DNA of 64,000 nt from Candidatus Mycalebacterium zealandia. GTDB lineage: Bacteria; Desulfobacterota_D; UBA1144; Nemesobacterales; Mycalebacteriaceae. The notes below the pieces were generated by a model that saw only the letters and a list, made by a program, of their open reading frames with translations, searched no databases and was not told the origin of the DNA. Shown here piece after piece: positions 7,517 through 22,214 of the stretch (the stretch's first letter is position 1; every line of letters starts with the position of its first letter). Position numbers and translations under genes: made by a program. The stretch is taken from the NCBI GenBank assembly GCA_014075295.1, contig CP046180.1:62001-126000 (forward strand), given 5' to 3'.

Positions 7517-9072
7517 TGAACTCCGCGCCTGACACCGGAAAAACCGTCCTGCGCAACTGGGGAACGGTCGGCGGGCTGACGTTTGTGAGCAGAATTGCGG
7601 GATACGCGCGGGACCTCGTGGTCGCCTACTTTCTTGGAGCGGGCTTTCAGAGCGATGCGTTCTATGTCGCGTTCCGTATACCGAATCTGTTGCGACGGCT
7701 GTTCGCGGAGGGAATGCTGTCCGCGGCCTTTATTCCGGTTTTCACCGAACACATAAAAAAACACGGCGCGCAAAGCGCTCGAGAGGGTTTCTCGGCAACT
7801 CTGACCGTTCTGCTCGCCGCACTCGGCACGGTAACGGTTTTGGGCGTTGTGTTCGCGCCGCAAATCATACGGCTGTTCGCGTCCGGTTTTGAGACGGAAT
7901 CTTTTGAGCTGGCGGTTTCGCTTCTGCGCCTGATGTTTCCCTACATCCTTCTTGTTTCGTTCGCGGCGATTTCAATGGGCGTGCTTAATTCGGTCGGACA
8001 TTTTTTCGCTCCCGCGTTCTCGCCTCTGCTTTTCAATCTGGCTTTCATAGCAGGGGTGGTTTTTTTTCACGACCAGTGGTCCGAGCCGGCAATCGCGGCC
8101 GGGCTGGGTGTTCTTGCCGGCGGCGCGCTACAGAGCGCGGTAAATATTCCCTTCTTGAAATCGCGCGGGTTCGCCCCCCAGATTGGCGGCGTTTTCAAAC
8201 ACTCGCCTCTGCTTAAAAAAATAGGTGTTCTGATGCTGCCTCAACTGTTCGGGGTCGCAGTCTACAATCTCAACATTATCGTCAACACTCAATACGCCTC
8301 TTACATGGAGAGAGGGACAGTGTCATACCTTTACTTCGCCGAGCGGCTGACGGAGTTTCCCCTAGGCATCGGCGCGGTCGCAATCGCCACCGTTTTCCTG
8401 CCCCGCCTTTCGGCGCGAGCGGCGGACAACGACATGGAGGGTTTTAGAACGGACTACGCCGGTCTGCTAAAAATGACGCTGTTCATAACCCTGCCCGCGC
8501 TCGCGGGACTTGCCGCACTCGCAAATCCAATCTGCTCGGTTCTATTTGAAAGGGGTGAATTCACAAGTTCCGACGCGCTTTTTTCTTCGCAGGCGCTCGT
8601 TGGATACGCCGCCGGAGTCTGGGCGGTCGCGGGAATAAGGATTACGGCTCCAGCTTTTTTCGCGTTGCAGGACACAAAAACCCCCGTTCGCGCGGCGGCG
8701 GCGGCTCTTGTAATCAACCTTGCGCTCGGCTATCTGCTGGGCTTTTCACTTGACTTGAAGCACACGGGGCTTGCGCTCGCGAGTTCGGTGGCGGCGGCGG
8801 TTAATTTTCTGATTCTCCTGCGTCTTCTGGACAAAAGAGTGGGGAAAATCACCGCACGGGGATTTTGGGTCTGGTTTGTAAAAACAGCTGGCGCTTCCGC
8901 TATGTCGGCGGCTGTGGCGAAAGCGGTTTATGAAATTGCGCAAACCGCAACGCCGCAAACAGTTGCTCTTGCGGTTGCGATAGCCGTTGCGTTTACGGTT
9001 TTTATACTGTCCACACGAATACTGAAAATTGAAGAAGCGGGAAAGTTGGTTGGAATGGTGAGAGGAAGGTAG
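7516..9072 (+). CDS. murJ: Lipid II flippase MurJ (MviN)
   Basis: Multi-pass inner membrane protein of the MOP superfamily that flips lipid II to the periplasmic side. 518 aa from the ATG at 7516; a GTG at 7513 is equally possible and would make a GTGA overlap with the preceding stop. The N-terminus contains the MurJ hallmark SRIAGYARD followed by GAGFQSDAFYVAFRIPNLLRRLFAEG. The rest alternates hydrophobic helices as expected for 14 membrane segments. It acts directly after MraY/MurG, and stands back to back with the rsmH-mraY cluster. Confidence 0.96.
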   Translation: MNSAPDTGKTVLRNWGTVGGLTFVSRIAGYARDLVVAYFLGAGFQSDAFYVAFRIPNLLRRLFAEGMLSAAFIPVFTEHIKKHGAQSAREGFSATLTVLLAALGTVTVLGVVFAPQIIRLFASGFETESFELAVSLLRLMFPYILLVSFAAISMGVLNSVGHFFAPAFSPLLFNLAFIAGVVFFHDQWSEPAIAAGLGVLAGGALQSAVNIPFLKSRGFAPQIGGVFKHSPLLKKIGVLMLPQLFGVAVYNLNIIVNTQYASYMERGTVSYLYFAERLTEFPLGIGAVAIATVFLPRLSARAADNDMEGFRTDYAGLLKMTLFITLPALAGLAALANPICSVLFERGEFTSSDALFSSQALVGYAAGVWAVAGIRITAPAFFALQDTKTPVRAAAAALVINLALGYLLGFSLDLKHTGLALASSVAAAVNFLILLRLLDKRVGKITARGFWVWFVKTAGASAMSAAVAKAVYEIAQTATPQTVALAVAIAVAFTVFILSTRILKIEEAGKLVGMVRGR

Positions 9073-9193
9073 TTTTTCAGTCTCCAAACAACATTTTTTA
9101 ATCAACCACCCTTTTCATCTCAAACTCTCCGCCGAATGTGTTGACAAAACACCCTTTAAATGAGGGGTTCGCTTTGCAGTGATAGCGGAAGAA

Positions 9194-9745
9194 CTACTGC
9201 TTTTCCGCTTCGTCATCCGCAGGCGCGGGCGTTTCAGAGGGGGTTTCTTCAGCTTTTTCCGCTTTAGGTTCTTCCTTCACTTCATCGGCGGGAGCGGCTT
9301 CCTCTTTTTTATCTTCGGCGGGCGGTTTGTCTTTTGCTTCCTCAGCCGGAGTTTCCGCCTTTTCTTCCTTTGTCTCAGGCTCCGCCGGTTTTTCAGCCTT
9401 TTCCGCTTCTGCGGCGGGCTCCTCTTTCGCATCAGGTTTTGCTTCGGCTTTCTTTTCCCCTTCGGGCTTTTCTTCTTTAGCGGGTTCCGCCTTCTCTTTC
9501 CCGCCCTTCTCCAGCTCTCCGGTTTCGGCGGAAGCGTTTCCCCCGGCGTCCTCAGCAGGCGGCGCCTCTTTGGGAGACTCCTTCACTTCGGGCGGAATCG
9601 CCACATCAAGCAGTCCTTCTTCAACAAGAACTACGATTTTTTCGCGGCTGTTGACGTACTTTTTGCGCTTTTTTGTCTTTACTGCGTAACGCCCGTCTCC
9701 ACGCTTGTAGATTATGTGCTCTGCGGTTTTCTTTACGATTTTCAT
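9194..9745 (-). CDS. Unknown protein: short conserved-looking head plus long acidic Glu/Ala/Lys/Pro tail
   Basis: 183 aa. The first ~50 residues (KKTAEHIIYKRGDGRYAVKT, then a lysine-rich strand and EKIVVLVEEGLLDVAIP) look like a small folded beta domain. From about residue 53 on it is an irregular repetition of E, K, A and P, predicted disordered. No signal peptide or membrane segment. ATG at 9745 with AGGAG at about 11 bases. Convergent with murJ and divergent from aroQ, so probably monocistronic. I do not know a function. The opposite strand shows a long open frame that is only a shadow of this biased composition. Confidence 0.75.
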   Translation of the reverse strand: MKIVKKTAEHIIYKRGDGRYAVKTKKRKKYVNSREKIVVLVEEGLLDVAIPPEVKESPKEAPPAEDAGGNASAETGELEKGGKEKAEPAKEEKPEGEKKAEAKPDAKEEPAAEAEKAEKPAEPETKEEKAETPAEEAKDKPPAEDKKEEAAPADEVKEEPKAEKAEETPSETPAPADDEAEKQ

Positions 9746-9865
9746 TATTCCCTTTCTCCTTCGCGATACTCGGTTTGATTTGCTCCGCGCCCCAACCTGA
9801 AACCGGAACAGGCGCTTACTGTACAGAACCTGCGGAACTATGCAAGCACAGAGCCGTTAAAGTTC

Positions 9866-9894
9866 TTGAAATCGCCCCCGAAATAAAGCACAAT
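9866..9894 (+). promoter_or_regulatory. Candidate sigma-70-type promoter for aroQ
   Basis: TTGAAA (9866-9871), 17-base spacer, CACAAT (9889-9894). The predicted start near 9901 gives a leader of about 50 bases to the aroQ ATG at 9953. The rest of the 9746-9952 gap shows nothing I can name. Confidence 0.35.
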
Positions 9895-9952
9895 TCAGGC
9901 AAAGGAAATGTCGCCGGTTCGCTTTCCCCCGGAGCCGGTCAGAGTCAAACAA

Positions 9953-10402
9953 ATGAACATACTTGTAATCCACGGGCCCAATCTGGGCCTTCTCGGCAAA
10001 AGAGAGCCGGAGATATACGGAAACCGCACTCTTGACGATGTAAACGCGGATCTTGCCGCTCGTGCGCGGGAAATTAATCCGGCTGCGTCCCTTGAATTTT
10101 TTCAGAACGACTCCGAAGGCGAAATCGTCCGCGCCATCCAGAACGCGCTCGGAAAGGTTGACGGAATCCTTATAAACCCCGCCGCTTACACGCACACAAG
10201 CGTTGCCGTGCGGGACGCCATACTCTCGGTCGGCATACCGACCGTTGAGGTTCACATATCAAACATTCATAAAAGAGAGGAATTCAGGCACATTTCGTTT
10301 GTGTCGCCGGTCGCGGTGGGAGTTGTGTCGGGATTTGGCACGGAGAGCTACGCTCTGGGCTTGCGCGGGCTTATTGAGCACCTTAAAGGCGGCGGAAAAT
10401 AA
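9953..10402 (+). CDS. aroQ: Type II 3-dehydroquinate dehydratase AroQ
   Basis: Dodecameric shikimate-pathway enzyme converting 3-dehydroquinate to 3-dehydroshikimate. The N-terminus [23 protein letters not shown] is the family signature (loop tyrosine and arginine included); [16 protein letters not shown] and [14 protein letters not shown] hold the catalytic histidine region. An in-frame ATG exists at 9908, but the 9953 start gives 149 aa, the normal length, has AGAG at 8-base spacing and starts exactly at the conserved block. aroE, two steps along the pathway, is in the same direction downstream. Confidence 0.96.
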
Positions 10403-10443
10403 TCGCGTTCGCGCGCGCGGAGCCTCTTTGAAGTAAATCTCAA

Positions 10444-12162
10444 ATGAAATCCAACTGGCTTATAAAAGAACAGTTTCCTGAACGCAGCGCGGAACTCGCG
10501 CGCGAGGTGGAAACCTCGCCACTTGTGGCTCAACTGCTCATAAACAGAGGAATAGAGACCGGTGAGACCGCCGAGCGTTTTTTGGGCGACAGTTTCACGG
10601 AGTTGCCGAGTCCTTTTCTGATGGCGGGAATGGAAGACGCCGTTGACAGAATAGAAAAAGCGGTTGGCAGCGGCGAGGTGGTTGCCGTTTACGGCGATTA
10701 TGACGCGGACGGCGTAACCTCAACCTCGCTTCTGTGTGATTTTCTGAAAGCCCTTGACGTTGACACCATATACTTCGCGCCGCACAGAATTAAAGACGGA
10801 TACGGAATAAACTCGCGTGCCGTTGAGGAACTGGGGCGGCGTGGGGCAACCCTGATTATCTCAACCGACTGTGGAATAACCGCGCTTGACGAAGTGGAAA
10901 ATGCCAAGGAACTGGGAATAGATTTTATAGTTACCGACCACCATCTGCCCGGCGATGAGATTCCGGACGCGGTCGCGGTCGTAAACCCGAAACTGCCCGG
11001 CTGCGACTATCCGGAAAAAAACATAGCAGGGGTTGGGGTGGCTTTTAATCTCGCTCTCGCGGTGCGCGCGCGACTGCGCGAGAAAGGTTTTTTTGACAGC
11101 AGAACCGAACCTAACATGGCTCATTATCTGGATTTGGTTGCCATAGGCACAGTAACGGACAGGGTTCCGCTCACGGGCGCAAACAGGATTATGGTCAAAG
11201 AGGGAATCAAGAGAATGAAAACCCCTGACAGACCCGGAATTGAGGCGCTGAAAACGGTCAGCAGGATAAACGGAGGATTCAATTCGGGCGACATCGCTTA
11301 CAGAATGGGGCCGCGCATAAATGCGGCGGGCAGAATAGACGGACCCGAAATCGCGGTTGAGCTTCTGCTGTCCGAAAGCGCGGAACACGCACGGACGATA
11401 GCAAAAAAACTGGATGAACGGAACAGAACCCGACAGGAACTTGAGCGCAAAGCGGTTGCCGAAGCGATTGAATTTATAGAGCAGAATCCGGACAGCGCGC
11501 AGTCCGCCTGCCTTGTGGTTTCTTCGCAGGACTGGCATCCGGGAATCACGGGCCCTCTCGCCTCGCGGCTTGTGGAAAAATACTCCAAACCCGCGTTCGC
11601 CATTGCAATAGACTCAGACGGAATCGGCAAAGGCTCCGGCAGAACGGTTCCGGCGGTCAACCTTTATGAAACCTTGCGAGCCTGTGACAAGTCGCTTGAA
11701 CGCTATGGCGGGCATGCGATGGCCGCAGGGATTACCGTGCGAAGCGAAAGCATAGACCTGTTCCGCTCCGAGATTGACAAGCATATCAAAAGCACCGGCG
11801 CGGGCACGAAACCGGGAGAAAAGACCTTCCGCATAGACGCACGCATCGGCATTGAGAGTTTGACCCTCAAAACCGTCAAGGAGTTTGAAATCCTTGAGCC
11901 GTTCGGAAGCGGCAACCCCACGCCGGTTTTCCTGATTGAAGGCGCGAAAATCATTTCACACAACGTCATCAAAAACGCTCACCTTAAACTTTTTCTGGAC
12001 ACGGGCGAAGGCGGCGCCCCTATTGAGGCAATGTGGTGGAACGCCGCGGACGGAGTTGCTGCGCCCGAAGGGAAAGCGGACATAGTGTTTTCGCCCGAAA
12101 TCTCGGTATGGAAAAACAGAGAGTCCCTCACACTCAGGATTATCGACCTTGAAAGGATATAA
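10444..12162 (+). CDS. recJ: Single-stranded-DNA-specific exonuclease RecJ
   Basis: 5'-3' ssDNA exonuclease of recombination and mismatch repair. 572 aa, full length. The DHH phosphoesterase domain has YGDYDADGVTS near residue 85, DCGI near 140 and TDHHLPG near 165, giving the metal-binding aspartates and histidines. The DHHA1 domain shows the GSGR motif (after IGKG), RYGGHAMAAG and, in the C-terminal OB fold, EPFGSGNPTPVF. Followed 17 bases later by trkA. Core gene, composition like its neighbours. Confidence 0.96.
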   Translation: MKSNWLIKEQFPERSAELAREVETSPLVAQLLINRGIETGETAERFLGDSFTELPSPFLMAGMEDAVDRIEKAVGSGEVVAVYGDYDADGVTSTSLLCDFLKALDVDTIYFAPHRIKDGYGINSRAVEELGRRGATLIISTDCGITALDEVENAKELGIDFIVTDHHLPGDEIPDAVAVVNPKLPGCDYPEKNIAGVGVAFNLALAVRARLREKGFFDSRTEPNMAHYLDLVAIGTVTDRVPLTGANRIMVKEGIKRMKTPDRPGIEALKTVSRINGGFNSGDIAYRMGPRINAAGRIDGPEIAVELLLSESAEHARTIAKKLDERNRTRQELERKAVAEAIEFIEQNPDSAQSACLVVSSQDWHPGITGPLASRLVEKYSKPAFAIAIDSDGIGKGSGRTVPAVNLYETLRACDKSLERYGGHAMAAGITVRSESIDLFRSEIDKHIKSTGAGTKPGEKTFRIDARIGIESLTLKTVKEFEILEPFGSGNPTPVFLIEGAKIISHNVIKNAHLKLFLDTGEGGAPIEAMWWNAADGVAAPEGKADIVFSPEISVWKNRESLTLRIIDLERI

Positions 12163-16755: not shown

Positions 16756-17505
16756 TTGGCGAAATGCGCATTGATGATTTATGAATTGATTGACTCCATA
16801 CCCGGCGGCGGAGAATACTGGAGCGAATACATAAATTTTTATGAAAAATTCTGGGATCGTCCGGCATCGCCAAGATCAACCTGGTGGGGAAAGGAATACG
16901 ATGAATTCAGAAATCTTCTCGCCTCTAATTTGGGAATTGAAACGGGTGAAATCAAAGACTGTTTTTTCATAAAAGAAAATGAGCGGTATTTTGTGTGCCG
17001 CATAGACGAACCGTCAAGTTTTAACATAATTTCGTGCGAAAATTTTATTCCGTTTGAATGGCTTGCGGCTTTTGACGAGGAAAAGCGCGATTTTTTCTAC
17101 ACTCACGCGGGTTTCGGCGCCGTTCATCATGATTCAATTTTCTATACTGAAAATATAGGAGACGCAATGAAAAGAATTGAAGAGGCGGAAAGTGTCTGCG
17201 GAAAAACCGGAGACAGAATTTCCGAATATCCTGAATTTGAAAAAATTAAAAACCTCGCCGTAAAATTGCGTGAAATGAACAGCTGGCTGCGCGGATTTGA
17301 CGAAAAAGGAAAAATTTTTCTGAACTACGGTGAAATATGCTCTTTTATAACTCAGGATTCAATGAAAAATGAAAACTCCGTCGGTGATTTGAAAAGAATT
17401 ATAAAAGGAATTGAAAAAGGCAATTACGAGAAAGCTGAATCAGATTTAAGATTTCTAAACGCAAAATGGACGGAAATAACCGGAGCGATTGAGAGAAGCG
17501 GGTAG
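16756..17505 (+). CDS. Unknown protein at the edge of the AT-rich island
   Basis: 249 aa, rich in aromatic and acidic residues, with no signal peptide, membrane segment or motif I recognise. TTG start at 16756, 3 bases after aroE; an ATG at 16774 is an alternative. Its composition is clearly poorer in G+C than aroE: line 17221-17280 has 20 G/C of 60. It may be an acquired gene riding on the aroE transcript. Its stop faces the end of the HerA-like gene 34 bases away. It could be an immunity-type or orphan effector protein, but nothing in the sequence proves it. Confidence 0.7.
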   Translation: MAKCALMIYELIDSIPGGGEYWSEYINFYEKFWDRPASPRSTWWGKEYDEFRNLLASNLGIETGEIKDCFFIKENERYFVCRIDEPSSFNIISCENFIPFEWLAAFDEEKRDFFYTHAGFGAVHHDSIFYTENIGDAMKRIEEAESVCGKTGDRISEYPEFEKIKNLAVKLREMNSWLRGFDEKGKIFLNYGEICSFITQDSMKNENSVGDLKRIIKGIEKGNYEKAESDLRFLNAKWTEITGAIERSG

Positions 17506-17539
17506 AAACAACCAAAATCTAAGAGTCAGACTCCTGTCT

Positions 17540-19267
17540 TTATTCCGGAAAATTAGAAATTAGACCTTGCATTTCTAAAAAGAGCGGAGTACCCGTAAAC
17601 GAAAGAGGAGAAACAGGTCCATAAAACATAAAAGGGAATTTGTTGTTGCTTGATGGATCAATAAAAGAACGATAAAACTTTGCTCCAGATTCGTCATTGA
17701 TTATATTCCTAATCTGGCTAAATTCAGAACCACTAGTAAGTCCATATCCAAAAGCGAATATTCTAATCTGCTCTCTTATTTCCCTGTGAAGAGACTCAAT
17801 GGTCTGAGTAATGAACATATAGCCTATGCCGTACTTCCTTGTTGTACGAACAGCATCAATAATGCTTGTTGTTAACTCCTTCATATCTTCATCGTATGTA
17901 TAGGTGCTGATGAATCGATGAGCTTCATCTAAAACTACTAGACAGTTTGATTTACCTCCTTGGCTATATAATTCTGCACCTTTTTCTTTTATAGAATCTT
18001 CAATGATTTTTATAAAAAGAGTTTGAACAGATTCCATTCCGCTGACAGCATTCCTCCCTGAAATGTTAAGGACAATTACATTTTTGGGATTAGATACTAC
18101 TTTATCTACGATGCTGTCTAATTTTTCCTTGTCATCCTCTTTGAACAAACTACACACGTAATCCCATATCTCTTTTGTCTCATTGTCAATCTCCAGAGAT
18201 TCATCTGCGAGATCCCCTATCCTCTTCCTCAATCTTGTTAACTGAGAACCGCCACTAGCGTATACATTCTCTGTATACCTCTCGCTTTCATAAAACCTCT
18301 TAATCATTGAATTAAGTAACCCATCACTATCTTCTCCAATAGAAAAACGCGAATTGTTCATCCTTCCAGACACATATTCTTGAATTGATTCAGCCATTAG
18401 TTCTCTTTTTTCCTGAGTATGAATTCTGAAAGCCTTTCTAATAAAATCGTAGTTCAGCAATAAACTACTAAATAGAGATGCGAGATGAGGCAAAGAAACC
18501 TCATCAGGGACAATATATTTTTCATAATTCATCCCAGCATCTTCAAGACTACCCATAAAACTCACTTGGTCTGGCAGCACATTGTTATCTTCAAAAAACT
18601 GTTCTTGAGGATCAAGAATTAAAATACTCATATGCTCATTATTTCTTGCGTATGCTAAAATCATGTTGGCGGCCGCGGTTGTTTTTCCTGAACCAGTGCG
18701 GCCAAAAACTCCTATATGGTAGGCATCTCCCCCACCTCCTTCTTCAGGTTTCCCAAAATGCTTAAACCAAAAAGGAATTTGAACATCTGTGTCGTATGCA
18801 TTACCTATACAGACTAATTGCCCCTCATACTGCTCCATAAGTTTTTCCATAATTTTATTATTCACTCTCTTAACCGGCACACCAGTTGAAGGTGAATTTG
18901 CTAATTTATGAGCCTCTGATTTTTCTTCTGCAAGAATAAAACTGGATTGAACACTAACCTTGGCTATCCTGTTGTCTGCAACTTCGCTCAGATTAGGAAG
19001 ACTGCCGTGTCTTTTTATAATTCCCTTAAAAGACGGTTCTTGATGCCATTTGTTTTCCGTTGTAATTTCAGTTGTTTGACCTAAGACAAACACATCTTTA
19101 TCCCCCTCTTTCACACAAAAACAAGCTAACTCACCCAGAAGTTTGTCTTTTTCACTAATCTCAAGAACATCAACAACTGCTTCAAAAGTGTCACTTGGAG
19201 AACCTACTGCTCCAAGGGAATTGTCGTCAGAATCTAATAGGTTAATGATAGATTTGTTCTCGGGCAA
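17540..19267 (-). CDS. HerA-like hexameric DNA-translocase ATPase (DUF87)
   Basis: 575 aa. The N-terminal ~150 residues look like the beta-rich HAS-barrel segment, ending in LVCIGNAYDTDVQIPFWF. Then comes the FtsK/HerA-type ATPase core: Walker A GRTGSGKTTAAAN (about 189-201), ILDPQEQF, and Walker B LVVLDEAHRF (about 440), followed by TTRKYGIGYMFITQ. HerA proteins form ring translocases that act with NurA nucleases in DNA end processing and, in bacteria, in several anti-phage systems. TTG start with strong GGAGG at 6-base spacing, 11 bases after the NurA-like stop. AT-rich relative to the core genome. The last gene of the three-gene unit. Confidence 0.88.
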   Translation of the reverse strand: MPENKSIINLLDSDDNSLGAVGSPSDTFEAVVDVLEISEKDKLLGELACFCVKEGDKDVFVLGQTTEITTENKWHQEPSFKGIIKRHGSLPNLSEVADNRIAKVSVQSSFILAEEKSEAHKLANSPSTGVPVKRVNNKIMEKLMEQYEGQLVCIGNAYDTDVQIPFWFKHFGKPEEGGGGDAYHIGVFGRTGSGKTTAAANMILAYARNNEHMSILILDPQEQFFEDNNVLPDQVSFMGSLEDAGMNYEKYIVPDEVSLPHLASLFSSLLLNYDFIRKAFRIHTQEKRELMAESIQEYVSGRMNNSRFSIGEDSDGLLNSMIKRFYESERYTENVYASGGSQLTRLRKRIGDLADESLEIDNETKEIWDYVCSLFKEDDKEKLDSIVDKVVSNPKNVIVLNISGRNAVSGMESVQTLFIKIIEDSIKEKGAELYSQGGKSNCLVVLDEAHRFISTYTYDEDMKELTTSIIDAVRTTRKYGIGYMFITQTIESLHREIREQIRIFAFGYGLTSGSEFSQIRNIINDESGAKFYRSFIDPSSNNKFPFMFYGPVSPLSFTGTPLFLEMQGLISNFPE

Positions 19268-19278
19268 AACTCTCCTCC

Positions 19279-20466
19279 CTAACTTGTCCTATAAGGAAGA
19301 ACAAGATCAAAGTTTTTGTCGCTATGCAATACGCTATCATTAAAAATAGCCTGGTTAACTGCTTCCATTCCAAAATATATATTCTTAGCAATAATATCCG
19401 CCAAAAATTGCGGATAAGGTTCCCGGATTTCTGGAAATACTATTTGTCTTTTTAAACTTCTAAGAAACCGCTCAAGATTGTTGCCATTTTCCGCAAGATT
19501 TTTCTTTATTTCAACTCGATGAGCCATAGTATGCTCCAAAGGTTCGTAATAACAAAAAAACAAATCAGATTCACTATTGTCTGTAACTTTGAATGGAGCA
19601 ATTGCATCTTCAAAACGACCTTGAAGTTCTGAATTGTCCACGCCATCAATCGGCAAATTACATTTTATATGAATCTGTTTCCACATCTCTCTGTCTTTTG
19701 CTGATTGCCCTACAGGAACCGGTTTTGTATATTCATTTTCCTTGAGAAGCGTAGACAGAAAAACTTTGTCATCGGCAACAATTTCAAACTCTTGCAATTG
19801 AGAGTCTATAATCTCCCTTGAAGAAGAGTATTTTGTAAGACTTATTATTGATTCGTTAGAAAAAGCACTTGCCACAATATCCGGTATTTCGGGAATGACT
19901 TTGTCATAGTTTTCAGAAAGAAATCTTGATAGTGCATCTACGTATGGTTTGTCAGCATCTGCTTCATCTTTAGCACTGAGCAAACTATTGAGTTTAAGAA
20001 TGGCGGTTACATGAGAACCGTCCATTATTCTTATTTCTCTATCTGCTTCAGACAAAATGCTCAACTCCATGAGAAACATCACACCTTGCGCCAATCTCGG
20101 ATTAGCTACATGGTGAGGCAATGCGTCTTGCCATTGTTGATATTGTCGCGAACCATCAGGCCAAGTGGTTGAAGGTTCTTTTGAAAGTCCATCTACGCCA
20201 ACTGCAATTGCCAAAACAATGTCTGCGCTTGTTTTGTGCTCAACAACATTGGCTCCATCAGCAGCCATAATTGACTCTGTAAAATCGCCTTCCGAACAAG
20301 ATTGAATAAAATTATTATTTTTCAGTACAGTCCTTGCTTTTTCTACTTGAGATTCATTGATTTCAATCGTTTTGGCCAATTGCTTTGCAGTTCGAGGTGC
20401 TTTTTCAAGCATTTGTAGCAAGAGATCCTCTGGCAAATATGCGTAGCTCTTATCGTCTGTAGCCAA
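19279..20466 (-). CDS. NurA-like nuclease with N-terminal winged-helix-like segment
   Basis: 395 aa, not previously named in this context as far as I know. Residues about 10-55 look like a winged helix (PRTAKQLAKTIEINESQVEK). Then a divergent NurA pattern: AADGAN (Asp70), Glu134 in FLMELSIL, MDGSHV (Asp149), a Y...YRVE-like strand region (YYEPLEHTMAHRVEI) and REPYPQFLADIIAK, matching the YP..L..A motif near the NurA C-terminus. NurA is a Mn2+-dependent nuclease that functions with HerA, and a HerA-like gene follows 11 bases later. TTG start with GUGGGG at 8 bases. The family call is by eye from motif order and the partner gene. Confidence 0.65.
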   Translation of the reverse strand: MATDDKSYAYLPEDLLLQMLEKAPRTAKQLAKTIEINESQVEKARTVLKNNNFIQSCSEGDFTESIMAADGANVVEHKTSADIVLAIAVGVDGLSKEPSTTWPDGSRQYQQWQDALPHHVANPRLAQGVMFLMELSILSEADREIRIMDGSHVTAILKLNSLLSAKDEADADKPYVDALSRFLSENYDKVIPEIPDIVASAFSNESIISLTKYSSSREIIDSQLQEFEIVADDKVFLSTLLKENEYTKPVPVGQSAKDREMWKQIHIKCNLPIDGVDNSELQGRFEDAIAPFKVTDNSESDLFFCYYEPLEHTMAHRVEIKKNLAENGNNLERFLRSLKRQIVFPEIREPYPQFLADIIAKNIYFGMEAVNQAIFNDSVLHSDKNFDLVLPYRTS

Positions 20467-20471
20467 AGAAT

Positions 20472-21620
20472 TTACCCCACAAGATTCTGGCAGTTTTCCA
20501 AGTCTTCTGACAACTCATCTAGATAGTTCTGCTTAGAAAAAAAATTCTTTTCATATTCCCAAACTCTTTTGCAAGCCCATCTTTCCTTCCAATATCCTGT
20601 CAAATCATCAACGCTTCTGCCATACCACGTAGGTCTCTTCTCTTTCTCTATTACATCTTTTAAATTTGAGGCAAAGGGAAAAAGATAAATAGCCCTTTTC
20701 ATTCCGTGCTCACAGCCATTTTTGAATCCCAATAAGTTCATCGCTTTGTTGATATTCTTCATTTTTACAGAAGGACCATTTCCAAACGCCCTTCCAGCCT
20801 TATAACCACACTCGCGGAGATAACTAATAAAACCTTCGTAAAGAGTATTGGGTATGTGAAAAGAACCGCTTCCACTCGTATAACCAATAAAATCGCAGAT
20901 TTTTTCATCGTATAATTTGAGACGGTTATAAACACTGCTTTTGCCATAAGCACCTGTTGTAGTAATGAAAAGTAAGTTTGCAGGCAACTGTCTTTTCAAA
21001 AGCAAGGTTTTGCTTTTGCTGTATTTGTTTTTGAAAGACTTACGAACCAAATCGGATGTCATCAGTGAAGCAACCAATTTTCCACCTAAAAACTTGTTGT
21101 AGGGGGGAAGGGATCCTAATCTTTGTGCCGATAACGACTGATTTACCCAATAATCCCTTCGTTCAGGTTCTATAGAAAGGTGTTTATCTCTAACACTCCA
21201 GGAGAGAATGGGGCTTTGCAATCCTATTAGACCAATTGGAGATTCGTGATAGTCATCCCAGACAACAAACCTCATTTGTCTTCCATAAGATTTTTCATAT
21301 GGAAGACTCCACCAAGTCAAATTCCACCAACGGAATAAATTCCCCTCTCTTGTTCCCGACTGTACTTCTATCAATCTGGGTTTAATCTTTGAAACTTCTA
21401 AACTTGAACTATCAAGAATGTGCTTGCTGGCTTCGGGCAAGAATGATTCAATAAAATCAATGCTTTCTCTGATTCTTTCCGCACGAGAAAGTTGGTGTAA
21501 ATGTCGTTTTTCTTCTCTATCATCCGTGTCAAGATAAAACTGCCCCTTCTTAATTCTATACCCCTGAGCAACAAGGACCCTTCGAACTTCTTTTCTTAAT
21601 GCAGTTTCAACCCTGTTCAT
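20472..21620 (-). CDS. DUF4338 protein similar to Druantia DruA
   Basis: 382 aa, soluble. It shows the run of motifs I associate with DUF4338/DruA: IKPRLIEVQSGT, LFRWWNLTWWSLPYEKSYGR, RFVVWDDYHESPIGLIGL, LPPYNKFLGGKLVASLM, TTGAYGKSSVYNRL and TSGSGSFHIP. DruA is one component of type I Druantia anti-phage systems; its biochemical role is not settled. The large helicase DruE and the other Druantia genes are absent here; a NurA-like gene follows 5 bases later. ATG at 21620. Upstream 21621-21668 is AT-rich without a clear promoter. Confidence 0.82.
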   Translation of the reverse strand: MNRVETALRKEVRRVLVAQGYRIKKGQFYLDTDDREEKRHLHQLSRAERIRESIDFIESFLPEASKHILDSSSLEVSKIKPRLIEVQSGTREGNLFRWWNLTWWSLPYEKSYGRQMRFVVWDDYHESPIGLIGLQSPILSWSVRDKHLSIEPERRDYWVNQSLSAQRLGSLPPYNKFLGGKLVASLMTSDLVRKSFKNKYSKSKTLLLKRQLPANLLFITTTGAYGKSSVYNRLKLYDEKICDFIGYTSGSGSFHIPNTLYEGFISYLRECGYKAGRAFGNGPSVKMKNINKAMNLLGFKNGCEHGMKRAIYLFPFASNLKDVIEKEKRPTWYGRSVDDLTGYWKERWACKRVWEYEKNFFSKQNYLDELSEDLENCQNLVG

Positions 21621-21668
21621 AACTTAGAACATACAATACACATTTTTCCTAAAAAAATTCCACCAACT

Positions 21669-22214
21669 TCACTGCTTAACCACCCTTTCCAAAACCTTCT
21701 CAAACTCTTTCGCCCTTTCCTGCCCTATGTGCGTTTCCCCTATCATTTTGTGAACAATTTTGCCGTCTCTGTCCACGATATAAAAAGTGGGCCAGTAGCG
21801 ATTGTTCATTTTCCGCCAATAGTAAAAATTGTTGTCCATCATAACGGGATGAGAAACCTTGAATTCCCGCATTTTCTCTTCAAGGTTTCTTCTGCTCTTT
21901 TCATGCTCAAACTCCGGCGTGTGCACGCCGATTGCCTGAAAGCCGTTTCCTCCGAAACGTTTTTCAAGCCCGCGCAACCACGGGAAGGAGCGATATGAAT
22001 TCCAGCAGTCAAAAGTCCAGAAATACACGAGCGTTACCCCGCCCTTTAAGTCCTCACGTTTGAGCGGCGCGGAATTAATCCAGTCCTGCCGGCTTGACGA
22101 GGTGAATTCCGGCAGTTGCCTCTGGTAAAACGCCTGAGCTCCCGCATGCGTTATCAGAACCGGCGCAAAAATAAAAAAAGCGCTAAAAAGAAATGCAATT
22201 TTAATCGCTCTCAT
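21669..22214 (-). CDS. Secreted thioredoxin-like protein with CxxS active site
   Basis: 181 aa. Signal peptide about residues 1-27 (hydrophobic core FLFSAFFIFAPVLI, then HAGAQA), so periplasmic. Thioredoxin-like/TlpA-type fold: TLVYFWTFDCWNSYRSFPWL carries the active site as C-W-N-S instead of CxxC; then the cis-proline segment YWPTFYIVDRDGKIV. Loss of the second cysteine argues against ordinary dithiol reductase chemistry and for a monothiol isomerase or peroxidase-like role (inference). Last gene of the oad operon, 6 bases after the DCC protein. Confidence 0.82.
   Translation of the reverse strand: MRAIKIAFLFSAFFIFAPVLITHAGAQAFYQRQLPEFTSSSRQDWINSAPLKREDLKGGVTLVYFWTFDCWNSYRSFPWLRGLEKRFGGNGFQAIGVHTPEFEHEKSRRNLEEKMREFKVSHPVMMDNNFYYWRKMNNRYWPTFYIVDRDGKIVHKMIGETHIGQERAKEFEKVLERVVKQ

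Follow-up and report, generated by a model that had tools for sequence, protein, structure and literature searches.

Characterized NurA-HerA complexes combine a HerA hexamer that pumps double-stranded DNA with a NurA dimer that cuts it (PMC9960219, PMC12977600). Their role is disputed between resection and defense (PMC12977600). Like the Sir2-HerA systems, DUF4297-HerA associates a HerA hexamer with a separate effector, and it demonstrates that pairs of this kind can protect against phage (PMC11291478). In Druantia, a YprA helicase is central (PMC12458937). Mom proteins are GNATs acting on adenine N6, and those of jumbo phages fused to restriction endonuclease (REase) domains are predicted to constitute a modification-restriction pair (PMC7824862).

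We analyzed a window, the whole stretch of 64,000 nucleotides, in which one operon encodes DruA (P0002), a NurA-like protein (P0001), and a HerA-type ATPase (P0003). Other loci and genomes are designated by L- and G-numbers. As in the NurA-HerA pairs of archaea, Deinococcus, Thermotoga, and others, the acidic motifs of P0001 follow the order DG, E, and DGS, and the gene adjoins one for a HerA-type translocase. The branch differs from these pairs by the replacement of a His by Ile, the invariant K212 and K361, the upstream DruA gene, and a patchy horizontal distribution. Compared with the DUF4297-HerA and Sir2-HerA defense systems, the predicted effector is instead of the NurA type and the module has DruA as a fixed third gene; profile searches found no DUF4297 or Sir2 domain in P0001. 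The triad has the DruA protein in common with Druantia types I–III, but the YprA-type helicase DruE is absent from the locus, so the triad is not a Druantia by the usual definition. Like the Mom-REase fusions, it couples a protein with a predicted GNAT fold to a putative nuclease. However, DruA of the triad has no direct match to Mom, the nuclease is of the NurA-HerA type and not an REase, and DNA modification by the triad is hypothetical. PADLOC-DB 2.0 contains no model for P0001, and no description of the DruA-NurA-HerA module was found in this database or in the open literature searched, where the single paper containing all three names deals, judging from its title and abstract, with gut bacteria in human disease. 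The individual parts are known; their three-gene combination appears to be new, as does the divergent NurA branch.

A Three-Gene Operon

The features of the locus are listed in table 1. The preliminary description had placed the NurA-like gene in the middle of the operon, and it is indeed the second of three same-strand genes, with DruA upstream and HerA downstream. It had also given the correct boundaries of the gene, leaving out the strand: the plus strand contains many stop codons over this region and the open frame lies on the minus strand. The genes are tightly packed. Five bases separate DruA from NurA, and 11 bases, including a GGAGGAG sequence, separate NurA from HerA. P0003 displays a Walker A motif (GRTGSGKT, residues 189–196) and a Walker B motif (LVVLDEAH, 443–450), and is matched by the HerA and mad8 models of PADLOC. 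The three proteins differ in charge: DruA is basic (18 excess basic residues), and both NurA (22 excess acidic residues) and HerA are acidic.

Table 1. Features of the DruA-NurA-HerA Locus in Window Coordinates
Feature	Position	Strand	Basis
Variable-site interval holding the triad	17506..21668	.	GC content, sister-genome comparison
HerA-type hexameric DNA-translocase ATPase (predicted), P0003	17540..19267	-	PF01935, 40.9 bits (cut-off 23.2); Walker motifs
Divergent NurA-domain nuclease (predicted), P0001, 395 aa, TTG start	19279..20466	-	Homology, motifs
Codon of Asp149 (motif III, MDGSH)	20020..20022	-	Invariant in 14/14 homologs; 26/26 with canonical NurAs
Codon of Glu134	20065..20067	-	Invariant in 14/14 homologs
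Codon of Asp70 (motif I, AADGAN)	20257..20259	-	Invariant in 14/14 homologs; 26/26 with the 12 canonical NurAs
DruA (DUF4338, PF14236), GNAT fold (model), basic, first gene of the operon, P0002	20472..21620	-	PF14236, E 2.6e-61; model

A Divergent Branch of the NurA Family

P0001 does not match the Pfam NurA domain (PF09376), even at an E value of 10. Among ten homologs scanned, seven score above the curated cut-off of 21 bits: L002 (34.4), L016 (32.8), L018 (29.3), L008 (32.1), L019 (35.9), L005 (26.9), and L003 (34.4), the L002 protein being 65% identical to P0001. L007 (17.3 bits) and L010 (18.2 bits) fall below the cut-off and L004 has no match. The triad homologs of L026 and L061 also pass the cut-off, and that of L062 has no match. 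Searched against the PDB, a profile of 14 homologs gives a single match, Sulfolobus NurA 2ygk (E 0.11), with alignment of the first DG, of the Glu, and of the DGS that follows; a five-member profile returned only ribosomal proteins.

As a canonical set, we used 12 NurAs from the phylum of the window, identified with PF09376 in 12 of 57 genomes. Profile-profile comparison (hhalign), a check suggested in the preliminary description, aligned the 14 members with this set at P 0.0011 and placed both DG motifs in register. The controls gave P 0.15 (DruA), 0.28 (HerA), and 0.45 (reversed family). All these values are rough, as the set comes from one phylum and has a Neff of 2.0. With the eight triad members P was 0.0032; as with all 14, the alignment covered the motifs or extended over most of the length. 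The other subsets were unconvincing: the nine other members gave a weak alignment (P 0.012) leaving motifs I–III unaligned, and P was 0.19 for the clade of the five nearest sequences and 0.4 for P0001 alone. In a joint alignment of the family and the canonical NurAs, the DG, DG(S/T), GE, RVE, and YP motifs are colinear, and both DG motifs match in all 12 canonical proteins. The column opposite Glu134 contains E in five canonical rows and R in seven; we read these Arg residues as a local misalignment of the canonical LME motif, a reading that falls short of proof.

The motifs of P0001 are located as previously numbered: AADGAN at residues 68–73, Glu134, MDGSH at 148–152, and REPYPQFLAD at 348–357. 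The 14 homologs originate from Gammaproteobacteria, Alphaproteobacteria, Actinomycetota, one haloarchaeon, and IMG/VR contigs. They are identical at 12 positions (D70, G71, E134, D149, G150, K212, P309, A315, E349, P350, D357, and K361), so the motifs do not result from chance. The gammaproteobacterial copies are 65–66% identical to P0001 over its length. The proposed absence of a Ser after the first DG holds for P0001, which has Ala72, but is not a trait of the family, in which this position is Ala in eight, Gly in three, and Ser in three members. In the NurA-like protein of L026 (963–2099), the second motif reads LLDMTL, the Asp being retained and the Gly not.

From these comparisons, we assign P0001 to the NurA domain, within which it represents a divergent branch. 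The idea of a divergent NurA with three acidic residues in an operon with DruA and HerA is thus supported by the PF09376 matches of its relatives and by the order of its motifs. Against this reading stand the absence of a PF09376 match for P0001 itself, a low-confidence structural model, the weak comparisons obtained with subset profiles, and the loss of a canonical His.

This His, the last residue of the motif YPxxLxEAH, is present in 12 of 12 canonical NurAs, replaced by Ile359 in P0001, and found in one of the 14 family members. Conversely, the new branch has an invariant K212, D357, and K361 at positions where canonical NurAs have Ser, Glu, and Gln, respectively. Work by Chae et al. in 2012 is said to have identified Asp51, Glu114, Asp131, Tyr291, and His299 as the catalytic residues of Pyrococcus NurA, and we take the canonical His to be an active-site residue. 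Its loss, together with the divergence from other NurAs, would fit a catalytically dead protein that serves HerA as a structural cap. We consider this highly improbable, given that Asp70, Glu134, and Asp149 are retained in all 14 members, even at ~17% identity.

The extra N-terminal winged helix, proposed to read DNA sequence or bind DruA, was not borne out. The segment preceding Asp70 has 69 residues, compared with 84 before the corresponding Asp in 11 of the 12 canonical NurAs, which come from the same phylum; in the twelfth (L069) it has 113, probably from an over-long start. The HTH and HRDC matches are all under the cut-off, HTH_20 and TrmB each occurring in two of the 14 members, and the model predicts one helix in this region. 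We therefore rejected a winged-helix head. The N-terminal stretch of P0001 aligns with the N-terminal helical region of ordinary NurA; in archaeal NurA, the helix preceding beta1 serves dimerization (PMC9960219). The AlphaFold2 model, built from a shallow five-row alignment, is of low confidence (mean pLDDT 41.3, pTM 0.36): residues ~20–50 and a few short stretches reach 60–81, and one long helix spans residues 13–50. Foldseek searches with this model (pLDDT 41) gave no match at E < 1. An RNase H-like fold with the three acidic residues clustered, as envisaged in the preliminary description, is thus hypothetical for P0001.

A second, very divergent PF09376 match (8.4e-9) occurs in the same phylum, at L078 (366–1748), adjoining a gene that by eye resembles a DNA methyltransferase.

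Conservation of the Triad across Genomes

We scanned 22 selected loci with profiles and identified a NurA-like gene in 17; the loci are not a random sample, as they were found by searching for these genes. A HerA gene adjoins the NurA-like gene in all 17, and a DruA gene in 11. The 11 triads (the window, L020, which is the same locus as L002, L007, L008, L016, L017, L018, L019, L026, L061, and L062) are contiguous and all have the order DruA-NurA-HerA. The six NurA-HerA pairs devoid of DruA (L003, L004, L005, L009, L010, and L011) are all plasmid-borne, in Natribaculum, Euzebya, Rhizobium, Corynebacterium, Rhodococcus, and Dietzia. L024, L025, and L063 contain DruA without NurA, L064 a weak DruA match only, and L065 none of the three genes.

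Less biased are the figures for 369 genomes of one class: five carry the NurA-like gene and 17 carry DruA (16 over the cut-off). All five NurA-like genes adjoin DruA, a co-occurrence with a p value of 2.4e-6 after exclusion of the seed genome. In a separate draw of 398 genomes from one phylum, the NurA-like gene was found in three, the seed and two others, both of which are triads. The distance matrices of the 11 triads are correlated for NurA and HerA (r 0.981), DruA and HerA (0.847), and DruA and NurA (0.835), with p 0.0001 in each case, as for genes inherited together. The DruA of L007 belongs to a different branch from its NurA and HerA, indicating some swapping.

In viral contigs, single-sequence queries with P0001 and P0002 found nothing, and alignment queries identified L007, L008, and L024–L026. 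No match to P0001 was found in phage records. DNA methyltransferase genes lie near four of the 11 triads (L007 and L016, and by eye L017 and L019), and none is found in the window. We treated them as part of the neighborhood and not as a component of the triad. In L007, a large N6-adenine methyltransferase gene of the Eco57I/MmeI type (8822–12088) overlaps the end of the HerA gene.

On the Corynebacterium, Rhodococcus, and Dietzia plasmids (L009, L010, and L011), the NurA-like and HerA-like genes are located near an annotated SMC/Rad50-like ATPase gene, whose L009 product matches AAA_23 in Pfam. A second nearby gene resembles a phosphoesterase by eye, and in L009 it has no Pfam match. These plasmids possibly carry an archaeal-style NurA-HerA-Mre11-Rad50 set in bacteria.

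The DruA-free pairs bear on the function that DruA might have. NurA-HerA could be a suicide nuclease degrading all DNA, which DruA or its product would restrain until a phage blocks DruA. The abortive response of DUF4297-HerA, which degrades both host and phage DNA (PMC11291478), provides a precedent, DruA is the first gene of the operon, and its basic charge would be compatible with a charge-based contact with the acidic NurA and HerA. However, the six pairs lacking DruA imply that it is not always needed to keep NurA-HerA harmless, and we regard a guarded nuclease of this kind as decidedly unlikely.

A Compositionally Foreign Module at a Variable Site

The triad has a GC content of 37–39%, compared with 50.7% for the remaining window. 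At 0.379, its interval lies outside the range of 101 further segments, equal to it in length (0.449–0.541). Between the flanking features, at 16756–17505 and 21669–22214, only the DruA, NurA, and HerA genes are present. In G011, a genome of the same genus, the same ordered neighbors enclose an unrelated gene encoding 280 amino acids without Pfam match (L080, 8773–9615). The site of the triad is a variable accessory site. Across the phylum, one of 57 genomes carries a gene of the P0001 type.

This pattern bears on a possible function in repair or replicon maintenance, in which NurA-HerA would resect the ends of broken DNA, the role suggested for the pair in archaea and Deinococcus, with DruA as an accessory. 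Resection of ends by Deinococcus NurA-HerA (PMC9960219), the existence of six DruA-free pairs on plasmids, and the SMC/AAA_23 ATPase gene that follows the pair on the Corynebacterium plasmid agree with such a function. Conversely, the gene is far rarer in the phylum than canonical-type PF09376 matches (1 against 12 of 57 genomes), its GC content is foreign, its site is variable, and its linkage to DruA is strict on the chromosomes sampled. Archaeal HerA-NurA itself has been argued to be unlikely to act in resection and may serve defense (PMC12977600). We consider a repair function of the triad unlikely.

Several triads are associated with mobile elements. Next to L007 are phage head and tail genes; the neighbors of L008 include genes for an integrase, SSB, and RusA. 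In L062 (5622–13742), the triad directly adjoins TniQ, TniB, and Mu-type transposase genes, which suggests that it is the cargo of a Tn7/Tn5053-like element. The triad might accordingly serve the phages and transposons that carry it, for example in DNA processing, and not the host; the multi-copy element described below, in which a DruA domain is joined to a transposase domain, would be consistent with this. However, for the triads of the window, L002, L016, L017, L018, and L061, no phage or transposition genes were recognized among the neighbors inspected, so that the triad persists without a vehicle. We find such housekeeping for mobile elements quite improbable.

DruA as a Putative DNA-Directed GNAT

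P0002 is a DruA protein (207.8 bits against PF14236, for a cut-off of 27; 2.5e-88 with the DruA1 model of PADLOC). Its structural model (pLDDT 69.7, pTM 0.69) is predicted to have the fold of GNATs (acyl-CoA N-acyltransferases): in a VIA-align search, the best match was 5jph_B (Z 10.2, rmsd 3.0, 133 aligned residues, over residues 77–335) and the rows were dominated by GNATs. The best E value obtained with Foldseek was only 0.026. The model agrees with the published designation of DUF4338 as a GNAT domain (PMC10853773). No activity of DruA is described in the literature searched.

A further clue comes from IS-DruA, a fusion of a DruA domain with DDE_Tnp_1_assoc (L041, 1465–2550; also L049 and L054). 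In G306, a genome of the gammaproteobacterial class, this element is present in three copies that are 98–99.7% identical over ~1.93 kb. Apart from the DruA and transposase domains, Mom is the single Pfam family that it matches at E 0.01 (E 0.0013, below the cut-off), and it matches PHROG 1384, "Mom-like DNA modification protein" (E 3.2e-5). By hhalign, IS-DruA aligns with 11 phage Moms (P 4.2e-10) and with the triad DruA (P 4.8e-10). The latter alignment spans 119 columns and ends before the stretch GKSSVYNRL, which by eye alone resembles the GxxYQAxNF of Mom. Direct comparison of triad DruA with Mom was negative: hhalign gave P 0.6 and none of ten DruAs matches the Mom domain PF25680, leaving the link through IS-DruA only. 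As a transposase-fused relative matches the Mom family of phage Mu, these data suggest that DruA acts on DNA and is by descent a DNA-directed GNAT, through the IS-DruA intermediate; DNA modification by the triad DruA is putative.

DruA might therefore be a Mom-related GNAT that places, or reads, an acyl-type mark on DNA, NurA-HerA shredding wrongly marked DNA. Such a system would amount to modification-restriction in which an enzyme acylating bases takes the place of the methyltransferase, and NurA-HerA, as a motor nuclease, that of the REase. We view this as rather unlikely.

A standalone full-length DruA is encoded in L063 (4952–9052), where it is followed by a 952-amino-acid protein of unknown kind and no NurA is present; this is perhaps another DruA-based system.

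Proposed Mechanism and Significance

We favor, as a reasonably probable interpretation, a mobile three-gene system directed against invaders, in which the divergent NurA nuclease acts with HerA and DruA chooses the target DNA. By analogy with characterized NurA-HerA complexes, a NurA dimer would sit on top of a HerA-type hexamer. HerA, driven by ATP, would pump double-stranded DNA into NurA, whose metal-dependent Asp70-Glu134-Asp149 site would cut the strands. DruA, translated first in the operon, would most likely supply the DNA-directed step by which DNA is selected for degradation. The absence of DruA from six of the 17 NurA-HerA loci counts against this interpretation, as does the lack of a direct match between triad DruA and Mom. 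No defense gene adjoining the triad was recognized within the window, which also counts against it.

The triad unites three proteins that are usually discussed separately. The fixed association of a mobile NurA-HerA with DruA argues for a role of this pair in defense, and the triad offers a clean three-gene system in which the function of NurA-HerA can be tested. The link from IS-DruA to Mom, in turn, predicts a DruA chemistry on DNA.
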